This document shows positions 31,919 through 35,133 of a stretch of 64,000 nt of DNA, one piece after another. Below the pieces are notes generated by a model that was not told the origin of the DNA, ran no database searches, and saw only the letters and a program-made list of their open reading frames with translations. The stretch's first letter is position 1; the number at the start of each line of letters is the position of its first letter. Origin of the DNA: Acidimicrobiales bacterium (lineage in GTDB: Bacteria > Actinomycetota > Acidimicrobiia > Acidimicrobiales > JAVJTC01); the NCBI GenBank assembly GCA_040219085.1, contig JAVJTC010000002.1:62001-126000 (forward strand), in the 5' to 3' direction. The position numbers were made by a program, and so were the translations under genes.

Positions 31919-32616
31919 GTCGCCTCCACGTGGGTGCGGTAGGCGCGGTCCGTGTGGTGGCGGGTGAACCCGATGCGGTGGTAGGTGGCGACGGCCGCGT
32001 GGTTGTCGGACTCGACGTAGAGCATCCCCGTGGTGAGGCCGGCGGCGGCCAGGTGTGCCAGCCCGGCTCGCGTCAGGGCGGTGCCGAGGCCCCGGCCGGC
32101 GAAGTCGGGGTCCACGGCGATGACGTAGATCTCGCCCAGCGGGGGAGTGGTGTCACGGTGTTCCTTGGTCCAGCAGAAACCGGCGAGGCGTCCATCGCGG
32201 TCGTGCAGCAGGAAACCCTGCGGGTCGAACCACGGTTCGGCACGCCGCTCGGACAGGTCGGCCTCGGACATGTCGCCCTGCTCGGGGTGCCACGAGAAGG
32301 CCCGGTTGTTCACGGCGAGAAACGCCCCGGCGTCGTCGTCGGCGAAGGGGCGCACCACGAGGTCGGTTCCTTCGACCGGCAGGGGACAGCGCATCTGCCA
32401 CAGGTCGCGGTAGGCGTCGAAGCCGAGGTCGGTGGCGACCCGATCCAGTTCCTCGTCCACCGTGCGCACCCACAGCTGCACGGCGCCCCCGCCGCGGGAG
32501 CCGATGTCGGCGAGGATGCCGGTGAGCTCCGTTTCCAGCGTGGTGGGATCGCCGTCGTCGACGACGATGCGCCACCGGAACCCGGCGTCGAGCGGTCCGG
32601 AGAGGGTCACGGCCAT
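31915..32616 (-). CDS. mshD: Mycothiol synthase MshD (short form)
   Basis: MshD acetylates Cys-GlcN-Ins in the last step of mycothiol synthesis. The 233-residue product has the diagnostic NNRAFSWHPEQGDMSEADL and WFDPQGFLLHDRDG segments, then the C-terminal GNAT domain with EIYVIAVDPDFAGRGLGTAL and YVESDNHAAVATYHRIGF. Known MshD proteins are about 300 residues with two GNAT domains. Here the N-terminal domain, which is the degenerate one, is cut down to about 80 residues. Start ATG 32616 has TACCGT 6 nt upstream. Confidence 0.88.
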   Translation of the reverse strand: MAVTLSGPLDAGFRWRIVVDDGDPTTLETELTGILADIGSRGGGAVQLWVRTVDEELDRVATDLGFDAYRDLWQMRCPLPVEGTDLVVRPFADDDAGAFLAVNNRAFSWHPEQGDMSEADLSERRAEPWFDPQGFLLHDRDGRLAGFCWTKEHRDTTPPLGEIYVIAVDPDFAGRGLGTALTRAGLAHLAAAGLTTGMLYVESDNHAAVATYHRIGFTRHHTDRAYRTHVEAT

Positions 32617-32622
32617 GCGCCC

Positions 32623-32628
32623 ACGGTA
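32623..32628 (-). promoter_or_regulatory. -10 box of mshD (likely leaderless)
   Basis: Read on the minus strand, TACCGT ends 6 nt before the ATG at 32616. It would drive the five-gene operon mshD to the VOC gene. Confidence 0.5.
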
Positions 32629-32682
32629 CCGGCGGGTCGGTGTGCGTTTGTCGAAGCACCGCAGCGGTGGAAGTCTCGGAGA

Positions 32683-33333
32683 GTGGGACGTCCGAGATCA
32701 CCGAAGGGCCGGGCACGTGAGGCGCATCGTCGGCTCGCCGAGGAGTACCCCGACGATTTGTGCGAGCTCGACCACACGAGTCCCTACGAGTTGTTGGCGG
32801 CGACCATCCTGTCGGCGCAGTGCACCGATGCGCGCGTCAACCTCGTGACCCCGGTCCTGTTCGCCCGGTACCCGACGGCCGAGGACCTGGCGTCGGCCGA
32901 CGAGTCCGAGGTCGCCGAGATCGTGCGGTCCACGGGCTTCTACCGGTCCAAGGCCCGCAACCTCGTGGGGATGGCCCGGGGTGTCGTCGCCGACCACGAC
33001 GGGCAGGTGCCCACGCGCATGTCCGATCTGACGGAACTGCCCGGTGTCGGGCGAAAGACGGCGAACGTGGTCCGCAGCGTGGCCTTCGGGCTCCCCGGTC
33101 TACCGGTCGACACCCACGTGGGTCGGCTGGCCCTGCGCCTCGGTCTGACCACCGAGACGGACCCGGTGCGCGTCGAGGCCGCGCTCGATCCCATGGTGCC
33201 CGCGTCCGAGCGGGGGGACTTCAGTCTGCGACTCATTCTCCACGGCCGACGGGTGTGCGCGGCCCGGCGGCCGCGATGTGAAGACTGTCGTCTCTCTGAC
33301 TTCTGTCCGTCGGCGTTCGCTGCGGTGCCCTGA
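32683..33333 (+). CDS. nth: Endonuclease III
   Basis: This base-excision-repair DNA glycosylase/AP lyase removes oxidised pyrimidines. The 216-residue product has the helix-hairpin-helix LPGVGRKTANVV with the catalytic Lys, VDTHVGRLALRLG with the catalytic Asp, and a C-terminal 4Fe-4S site with Cys 192, 199, 202 and 208 (C-x6-C-x2-C-x5-C). GTG 32683 is the only good start in frame; its ribosome-binding sequence is poorly spaced. It is divergent from mshD. Confidence 0.94.
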   Translation: MGRPRSPKGRAREAHRRLAEEYPDDLCELDHTSPYELLAATILSAQCTDARVNLVTPVLFARYPTAEDLASADESEVAEIVRSTGFYRSKARNLVGMARGVVADHDGQVPTRMSDLTELPGVGRKTANVVRSVAFGLPGLPVDTHVGRLALRLGLTTETDPVRVEAALDPMVPASERGDFSLRLILHGRRVCAARRPRCEDCRLSDFCPSAFAAVP

Positions 33334-33371
33334 CCTGCAGGATCACACGCACAGTGGTCACAGCGACGCAG

Positions 33372-33390
33372 ATTCTCAGAAAGAGAGAAT
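33372..33390. repeat. AT-rich inverted repeat downstream of nth
   Basis: ATTCTC (33372-33377) and GAGAAT (33385-33390) flank a 7-nt A-rich loop. It could be part of an nth mRNA end or a protein site. It stands out because the neighbouring DNA is GC-rich. Confidence 0.4.
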
Positions 33391-33402
33391 TCCTGCCCGG
33401 AT

Positions 33403-33423
33403 GTGACCGCGCTCTGCGGTCAC
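33403..33423. promoter_or_regulatory. Perfect 8-bp inverted repeat, possible operator
   Basis: GTGACCGC and GCGGTCAC flank GCTCT. The dyad sits 7-27 bp before the TATTCT box of the candidate small RNA, covering where a -35 box would be. A third GGTCAC half site is at 33356-33361. This suggests an activator or repressor site. Confidence 0.55.
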
Positions 33424-33429
33424 CTGGGC

Positions 33430-33435
33430 TATTCT
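33430..33435 (+). promoter_or_regulatory. -10 box of the candidate small RNA
   Basis: TATTCT matches the -10 consensus at 4 of 6 positions and lies 7 nt before the first hairpin of the RNA. No -35 at the correct distance is evident; the upstream dyad occupies that place. Confidence 0.45.
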
Positions 33436-33441
33436 GATTGC

Positions 33442-33540
33442 CGTCAGGTACCCGCCACCTGACACACGGCGACGAACGGGATCCGCCGCCCGATGTCGCC
33501 AGTACCGGCGCCCCTTCGGGGGCGCCGGTGCACTTTTTCG
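33442..33540 (+). ncRNA. Candidate 6C-like small RNA (two C-rich hairpin loops plus terminator)
   Basis: This roughly 100-nt element does not code for a convincing protein. Hairpin 1 is GTCAGGT-ACCCGCC-ACCTGAC (33443-33463), a perfect 7-bp stem. Hairpin 2 pairs GGCGAC (33468-33473) with GTCGCC (33495-33500) and has an inner CGGG/CCCG stem with loop ATCCGCCG. Both loops share CCGCC. An 11-bp terminator stem with a TTCG loop and a T-run closes the unit. The layout of two C-rich-loop hairpins and a terminator is that of the actinobacterial 6C RNA, though uninterrupted runs of six C are absent. From memory, 6C RNAs lie in the same general chromosomal region as nth in Mycobacterium and Streptomyces. 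Confidence 0.6.
33504..33538 (+). terminator. Rho-independent terminator
   Basis: ACCGGCGCCCC (33504-33514) pairs perfectly with GGGGCGCCGGT (33519-33529) across a TTCG tetraloop, and TTTTT follows at 33534-33538. It is the strongest intrinsic terminator in the window. It points away from nth and ends the candidate small RNA. Confidence 0.85.
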
Positions 33541-33562
33541 ACTCGGATCGCCATCCGTCGAT

Positions 33563-33772
33563 CTACCGGGGCCGCTGTTGGCGGAGCAGGCGCCTTGCGC
33601 GACGCGCTGCCGACTCCACGAGGCGCTCGATCTCGCGCACCTCCACCGCCAGGTCCTCGCGGCCGGTCGCGTCGACCCCGTCGCCCATGTCGGCGAGTCG
33701 GGTCGCAACCTCGCTGAGGCGGGCCTCGATGGTCGAGAGTTCCCCCAGCGGCACGTCGGGTCGGCTGTCCAT
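33563..33772 (-). CDS. Small coiled-coil protein
   Basis: This is a 69-residue protein, charged and helical throughout (STIEARLSEVATRLADMGDG, then LAVEVREIERLVESAARRAR), ending in a basic tail. It is not recognised. The ATG at 33772 is preceded by AGAGGA, a good ribosome-binding site, which supports a real gene. It is divergent from hisD and convergent with the candidate small RNA. Confidence 0.6.
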   Translation of the reverse strand: MDSRPDVPLGELSTIEARLSEVATRLADMGDGVDATGREDLAVEVREIERLVESAARRARRLLRQQRPR

Positions 33773-33836
33773 GGTGTCCTCTCGTCGGGGCCGGGCACGG
33801 TCGTGAATTCCGGGCCGGGCCACCCGGCCCTCTGTG

Positions 33837-33842
33837 TAGCGT
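33837..33842 (+). promoter_or_regulatory. -10 box of hisD (likely leaderless)
   Basis: TAGCGT ends 7 nt before the ATG at 33850. It would start the hisDCBHAF transcript. Confidence 0.5.
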
Positions 33843-33849
33843 GGCGGCC

Positions 33850-35133
33850 ATGCTCCTGCGCAACCTGGACCGACGCGGTCAGGCCGATCCCGCTGCGGAC
33901 CTCCCCCGCCCCGAGATCAGCGGCGACGATCCCGTCGACGCCGTGAGGACGATCATCGCTGACGTGCGTGGCCGCGGCGACGCAGCGGTCCGCGAGCTCG
34001 GGCTCCGTTTCGACGGTGTCGTCCCCGACCCTCTGACGATCCCGCAGGACGACATGCACGCCGCACTGGCGGGGCTCGACGGAGAGGTCGTCGCGGCACT
34101 GGAGCTCGCGGCCCGCCGGATCGGGGACTTCCACCGCCTGCAGATGCCGACCTCCGCCCTGTACGAGAGCGAGGGGGTCACCGTGCGCTCGCGGGCCGTC
34201 CCGGTCGACCGGGCCGGTGTCTACGTGCCCGGAGGCCGCGCCGTGTACCCGTCGACGGTGCTGATGACGGCGATCCCCGCCCGCGTCGCCGGAGTGGCGG
34301 AGATCGCGATGTGCGTACCACCCGGCGCCGACGGGACCATCCCCGCCGTGACGCTCGCGGCGGCTGCCGTCGCCGGCGTGGACGAGGTCCACCCGATCGG
34401 CGGCGCGCAGGCGATCGCTGCGCTCGCCTACGGCACCGACAGTGTGCGTCCGGTGGACGTCATCGCCGGTCCGGGCAACGTCTTCGTCGCAATCGCGAAA
34501 CGGGAGGTCGCCGGCGACGTGGGGGTCGCTGCGGCGTTCGCCGGACCGTCGGAGGTGGTGGTCATCGCGGACGCGTCGGCAGATCCCCGACTGGTCGCGA
34601 TCGACATCGCGCTGCAGGCCGAACACGGTCCGGATGGTCTGGCCTGGCTCATCACCTGGGATCCGGCCGTGGCCGACGCGGTCGGGCGCGAACTCGCGAC
34701 GATCGTCGAGGCATCACCGCGCCGGGCCGAGATCGAGGCGACCCTCGACGGAGGCGGCTACGCGGTCCTCGTGGACGGACCGGACGCGGCCCTCGCCGTC
34801 GCCAACGCGATCGCTCCCGAGCACCTCGAGATCCAGACCGCCGACCCGGCGTCGCTGGCCGACGGTGTGCGCCATGCGGGAGCCGTGTTCTGCGGACCCT
34901 GGGCGCCGGCGTCGATCGGCGACTACGTGGCGGGACCGTCCCACGTCCTACCCACCGACGGCACCGCCCGCTTCGCCGGCGCGCTTACCGTCCACGACTT
35001 CCTGAAGGACCTGCACGTCGTGACGCTCGACCGGGCCGGGCTCGAAGCCGTCGGCCCGGCGGCGGCCACCCTCGCCGACGCGGAGGGTCTCGCTGCGCAC
35101 GCACTCTCGATCAGGGCGAGGCTCCAGTCATGA
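33850..35133 (+). CDS. hisD: Histidinol dehydrogenase HisD
   Basis: This zinc enzyme makes the last two oxidations of histidine synthesis. The 427-residue product has the HisD landmarks VYVPGGRAVYPSTVLM, GGAQAIAALAYGT, DVIAGPGN, the QAEHGPDG zinc-ligand region, NAIAPEHLEI and GPSHVLPT. ATG 33850 is preferred over GTG 33841 because of the TAGCGT box. The stop overlaps hisC (ATGA). Confidence 0.96.
   Translation: MLLRNLDRRGQADPAADLPRPEISGDDPVDAVRTIIADVRGRGDAAVRELGLRFDGVVPDPLTIPQDDMHAALAGLDGEVVAALELAARRIGDFHRLQMPTSALYESEGVTVRSRAVPVDRAGVYVPGGRAVYPSTVLMTAIPARVAGVAEIAMCVPPGADGTIPAVTLAAAAVAGVDEVHPIGGAQAIAALAYGTDSVRPVDVIAGPGNVFVAIAKREVAGDVGVAAAFAGPSEVVVIADASADPRLVAIDIALQAEHGPDGLAWLITWDPAVADAVGRELATIVEASPRRAEIEATLDGGGYAVLVDGPDAALAVANAIAPEHLEIQTADPASLADGVRHAGAVFCGPWAPASIGDYVAGPSHVLPTDGTARFAGALTVHDFLKDLHVVTLDRAGLEAVGPAAATLADAEGLAAHALSIRARLQS

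Follow-up and report, generated by a model that had tools for sequence, protein, structure and literature searches.

A candidate small RNA gene with two C-rich-loop hairpins, located between nth and hisD in the order Acidimicrobiales, and its relation to 6C RNA

The gap downstream of nth (endonuclease III) in the genome of an Acidimicrobiales bacterium raises the question whether an independent small RNA (sRNA) is encoded at this locus and, if so, whether it is a form of the actinobacterial 6C RNA (RF01066) or a member of a separate class. A preliminary description, made from the sequence alone, had listed here a -10 box (TATTCT), two hairpins with CCGCC in the loops, and an 11-bp terminator stem with a TTCG loop and T-run, and had left the choice between divergent 6C and new class. 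All of these elements are present in the sequence. We then analyzed the unit within the window, i.e., the whole 64,000-nucleotide stretch of contig JAVJTC010000002.1 to which all coordinates refer, and compared it with the related genomes.

Anatomy and neighbours of the candidate unit

The -10 promoter element TATTCT is located at 33430-33435 on the forward strand, as are all parts of the unit, and is separated by 7 bases from hairpin 1 (33443-33463), in which the stem strands GUCAGGU and ACCUGAC enclose the loop ACCCGCC (33450-33456). Hairpin 2 (33468-33500) consists of a 7-bp outer stem (33468-33474/33494-33500), an internal loop and an inner stem CGGG/CCCG closing the loop AUCCGCCG at 33481-33488. 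An intrinsic terminator follows at 33502-33539, with a stem (33502-33531) of 11 Watson-Crick pairs extended by one G-U and one G-C pair to 13 bp, a UUCG loop, and ACUUUUU after the stem. The start of the RNA was predicted from the -10 box at about 33442-33443 and its end from the T-run, giving a predicted gene of about 97 nt at 33442-33539, in agreement with the fold and the relatives. The minimum free energy of the fold was -60.1 kcal/mol (z = -6.15 against shuffled sequence), and the terminator was the sole one detected within 32600-34000, where 0.2 would be expected. A perfect 8+8 inverted repeat, GTGACCGC-GCTCT-GCGGTCAC, was also observed at 33403-33423 just upstream of the -10 box; it is possibly an operator of this genome, and a role as a conserved operator was rejected for lack of conservation in relatives.

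As the preliminary description had it, the unit lies between nth (32701-33333, forward strand, start approximate) and a small predicted coiled-coil gene (33563-33772, reverse strand), the latter being convergent with the sRNA terminator. The coiled-coil protein gave matches in the window's own genome only, at E 1e-5. The conserved neighbours, as judged from the locus comparison, are nth on the upstream side and hisD (33850-35133, forward strand) on the downstream side, and the gene order in most loci is rlmN, GNAT, nth, RNA, hisD. In genomes devoid of the sRNA, other genes are usually found directly 3' of nth. A sequence TAGCGT was noted 7 bases upstream of the hisD ATG (window 33837-33852), with similar TAnnnT sequences in many relatives. 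As judged from such signals, hisD appears to be leaderless and to carry its own promoter downstream of the sRNA.

Distribution, covariation, and transcription signals

By a blastn-type search with a 166-base query, strong matches were detected in genomes from the order's other families, and almost all of them begin at hairpin 1. The exact pattern of both loops was found in at least 119 stretches over the GTDB species genomes, and at least about 90 matches were left, among the matches listed, when the hairpin 1 stem was required as well. Most of the records listed were, by title, Acidimicrobiales, Acidimicrobiia, Ilumatobacter, Microthrix, Aquihabitans or unclassified Actinomycetes. R1, a covariance model built from both hairpins, matched 39 of the 247 genomes examined in the class, and its matches over 296 genomes of the phylum were confined to members of the same order. 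A rebuilt version (R2) detected the sRNA in 128 of the 248 genomes in the order, among them 101 of the 189 good ones, a lower bound because search filters lose weak matches, and the sRNA was nearly always single in a genome.

One cultured carrier is Aquihabitans sp. G128 (NZ_CP077604.1), in which the core of the sRNA (L110) occupies 1512037-1512101 on the minus strand. Two records titled Bifidobacterium breve (L069; CAMAYJ010000022.1) and Acidobacteriota (L122; JAGWNV010000026.1) bear the Acidimicrobiia nth-RNA-hisD locus, and these record titles look wrong. One weak match suggestive of a viral copy (L276, 28.6 bits) consisted of TCCCGCCGCC/ATCCGCCGCC without matching stems and was discarded on inspection; another (L177, 35 bits), lacking both the loops and nth, was regarded as a chance match. 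One genome (G015) carries its copy away from nth, and second, paralogous copies off nth were observed in three loci of the genus g29 (L296, L297, L298) and in L300 (genome G624). Each of these displaced copies retains the hairpins and the terminator, and that of G624 is preceded by an exact TATAAT. Since the sRNA is present at loci away from nth, it forms a unit of its own.

The stems were then examined for compensatory changes. Among 99 aligned members, both-side changes were observed in 16 of 18 pairs, with a covariation score of 0.418 against 0.160 for shuffled and at most 0.081 for slid partners, in an alignment that was fitted to the structure and so leans towards it. With a MAFFT alignment made without structure, the covariation was 0.246, the shuffled value 0.129 and the slid values no higher than 0.090. 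When changes were placed by parsimony on an nth protein tree (78 proteins), 87 pair-to-pair double changes were obtained, as against 4, 6, and 4 for the slid controls. Both hairpins contributed, with both-side changes in 6 of 7 pairs of hairpin 1 among relatives and compensatory changes in 7 of 7 pairs of the hairpin 2 outer stem. In contrast to the outer stems, which are free to vary, the loops CCCGCC and UCCGCCG are near-invariant in the 99 members, and the loop-closing pairs GGU:ACC and GGG:CCC likewise scarcely change; a module YCCGCCRCC is common to both hairpins. In genomes G054 and G251, both hairpins read GGGTCCCGCCACCC, with the first stem being CCGGGTCCCGCCACCCGG in G251 and CTGGGTCCCGCCACCCGG in G054. 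At three loci (L176, L178, L179), the CCGCC loop of hairpin 1 is lost and GGGAUCCGCCGCC is kept in hairpin 2, making these possible natural single-loop variants. That the loops stay fixed while the stems around them vary points to contact of the loops with a partner.

The signals for transcription were also conserved. In 92 of 119 members, a TAnnnT sequence begins 19-24 nt before CCCGCC, with 0-3 in the other 6-nt bins. The -35 signal was weak yet above the control spacings, 5-of-6 matches being found in 8 members against 1.5. Hairpin 2 is succeeded by a terminator stem of 8 bp or longer in 114 of 115 members, and in 79 cases the tail is T-rich, as compared with 13 of 115 shuffled tails. The preliminary description had made its case hang on conservation and covariation among relatives; both were found, the unit being conserved with paired changes in both stems, and the proposed gene, in which two C-rich-loop hairpins precede a terminator, holds as a conserved and covarying element. 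Chance is ruled out by this conservation and covariation together with the constant position of the -10 box and the presence of the terminator among relatives. As far as comparison of sequences can tell, the unit is very probably a real, stand-alone sRNA gene.

Relation to 6C RNA

The nth-hisD sRNA resembles 6C RNA in being an independent sRNA, about 100 nt long, with a promoter of its own (predicted here), two C-rich-loop hairpins and apparently redundant loops. The placement of 6C in the wider region of nth, stated in the preliminary description, holds in part: of 11 6C-bearing genomes tested, 8 have 6C on the nth strand, 9-18 kb downstream of nth, with a distance of 59 kb in one genome and no linkage in two. 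In sequence, however, the two RNAs differ. The search with the 6C model that had been proposed gave 15.3 bits on the window against a cut-off of 47 (E 8.9), out of register on hairpin 2 and the terminator, and the 6C cut-off of 47 bits was reached by no genome of the class. Reciprocally, R1 scored true 6C at 7-14 bits only, i.e., at noise level. Unlike 6C, with loops of at least six C residues, the nth-hisD sRNA has the loops CCCGCC and UCCGCCG, and it carries a third, separate terminator hairpin. Its neighbours are nth and hisD instead of the HAD hydrolase and ssd genes that were seen by eye at known 6C loci; no match to HAD hydrolase or ssd was detected in the window. The mycobacterial 6C RNA B11 sits between Rv3660c and Rv3661 (PMC2764107).

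Both RNAs were found in two genomes, G054 and G251, which bear the nth-hisD sRNA and, at different loci, a 6C-like RNA with 46.2 and 39.8 bits, respectively, below the cut-off of 47. The 6C-like RNA of these genomes (L180 in G054, L181 in G251) has two loops of 6-8 C and lies beside ORFs resembling pyruvate-dehydrogenase-type subunits. Two forms of one ancestral gene would be expected to replace each other, although the coexistence may have come about through duplication. Because of the score of 15.3 against 47 bits, the absence of C6 loops, the separate terminator, the different neighbours and this coexistence, the nth-hisD sRNA is like 6C in anatomy but is not a 6C member by the tests made. 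Of the two options left by the preliminary description, the new class fits best, and the divergent 6C was unsupported by any sequence model.

A question of descent remains beside that of membership, and any answer to it is compatible with the function proposed below. The sRNA might be a deeply diverged 6C, both deriving from a common ancestral gene, with the C-runs changed into CCCGCC and UCCGCCG, a terminator hairpin gained and a 6C-type mechanism retained. Such an origin would account for the shared architecture of two C-rich-loop hairpins, for the location of 6C downstream of nth in most 6C-bearing genomes, and for the fact that 9 of 70 noise-level R1 matches overlap true 6C on the correct strand, about 1 being expected by a rough chance estimate. 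It is at odds, however, with the low and out-of-register RF01066 score, the equally low score in the reverse direction, the separate loci of both RNAs in two genomes and the absence of the HAD hydrolase and ssd genes, and also with the structure of 6C itself, since in L185 T-residues come after the second C-loop hairpin itself. We regard this descent as less likely than not. An origin within Acidimicrobiia without descent from 6C, leading by convergence to two interchangeable C-rich loops that act as a duplicated seed (YCCGCCRCC) on a broad G-rich regulon, and so to a general post-transcriptional regulator of the order, is put forward here tentatively, at somewhat less than even probability.

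Possible mode of action and meaning of the new family

The unit probably represents a trans-acting regulatory sRNA of about 97 nt, specific to an Acidimicrobiales-type order of Actinomycetota, with its loops as antisense seeds for G-rich mRNA sites. Each YCCGCCRCC loop would serve as an antisense seed for GGYGGCGGR-type sites in mRNAs. Where such a site overlaps a ribosome-binding site or lies close to one, pairing would prevent translation or make the mRNA less stable. Either loop could stand in for the other, as in B11, with which no sequence is shared. In the case of Mycobacterium abscessus B11, either C-rich loop represses a leader with a six-G tract, and repression fails in the double-loop mutant only (PMC10470900). 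The loss of the hairpin 1 loop in three genomes, with the hairpin 2 loop kept, fits redundant loops.

The search for targets was performed at several levels. Two genomes, sampled to about 10% and with home-made gene calls, showed no enrichment of GGCGG at gene starts, and the complementarity of gene starts to the real loops was not clearly above that to permuted loops. The pairing of the loops with GGCGG in mRNA leaders, as suggested in the preliminary description, is plausible but is not accompanied by an excess of GGCGG at gene starts. A peak of GGTGG near the starts derives from GTG start codons. A general anti-Shine-Dalgarno role was rejected, since in these samples the gene starts have no excess of GGCGG before them and the real loops do not clearly outscore permuted ones. 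These negative tests weaken a general role against ribosome-binding sites and would leave a small regulon standing. An order-wide search for GGTGGCGGGAA upstream of ATG, using this one long pattern and a reversed control that is not composition-fair for Gly codons, gave no recurring target gene, and most of the 30 fetched matches were inside coding frames. As to hisD as a cis target, GGCGG precedes hisD in the window but is absent from the majority of relatives, and the gene seems to lack a leader; this candidate was also rejected.

The main rival to mRNA pairing is a protein partner, in which case the twin hairpin modules would titrate an RNA-binding protein, for instance one of KH-domain or cold-shock type with a preference for C-rich loops, and mRNA pairing would be secondary. 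The loop-closing pairs GGU:ACC and GGG:CCC are part of the conserved module, as is common in protein sites, and the module occurs in two copies per RNA, as is typical of sponges; the failure to find target enrichment is in line with the same idea. The partly paired letters next to the loops may, however, equally form an extended antisense seed, and the closest architectural relative, B11, acts by pairing (PMC10470900). We judge a protein-titrating RNA to be unlikely, though far less so than a structured 3' untranslated region or terminator belonging to nth, or an element acting in cis on hisD. In most members the unit lies just 3' of nth and in the same orientation, which would suit the latter, but an independent RNA is indicated by the fixed-distance -10 box in 92 of 119 members and by the survival of the unit at other loci. 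A cis effect on hisD is further opposed by the apparent leaderless promoter of this gene and, in the window, by the intervening convergent gene. A 3' or cis-acting element is very improbable, and a trans-acting sRNA that pairs with mRNA remains the preferred reading.

By search against Rfam 15, no family reached its cut-off at this unit, nor in 20 related loci. Weak matches such as istR (21.4 bits, cut-off 45) were rejected as chance. C-rich single-stranded loops, likely antisense seeds, are a feature shared with Staphylococcus aureus RNAIII and other mycobacterial sRNAs, the C-rich stretches of the latter having been noted (PMC2764107). There is, however, no common sequence or structure model with these RNAs, and the CCGCC seed of the nth-hisD sRNA is, in contrast to theirs, duplicated and frozen order-wide. 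No paper linking Acidimicrobiia or Acidimicrobiales with small RNA was found among the open-access papers searched. On the strength of the sequence comparisons, we propose that the nth-hisD sRNA is a new, previously uncatalogued sRNA family of two-C-rich-loop design. No Hfq is known in the host group. A widespread environmental lineage, including Microthrix, Ilumatobacter and many uncultured soil and aquatic groups, would thereby gain an order-wide sRNA with a clear and testable seed, and the question is made testable whether the C-rich-loop sRNAs of Actinomycetota come from one gene near nth or have originated repeatedly in Hfq-less bacteria.
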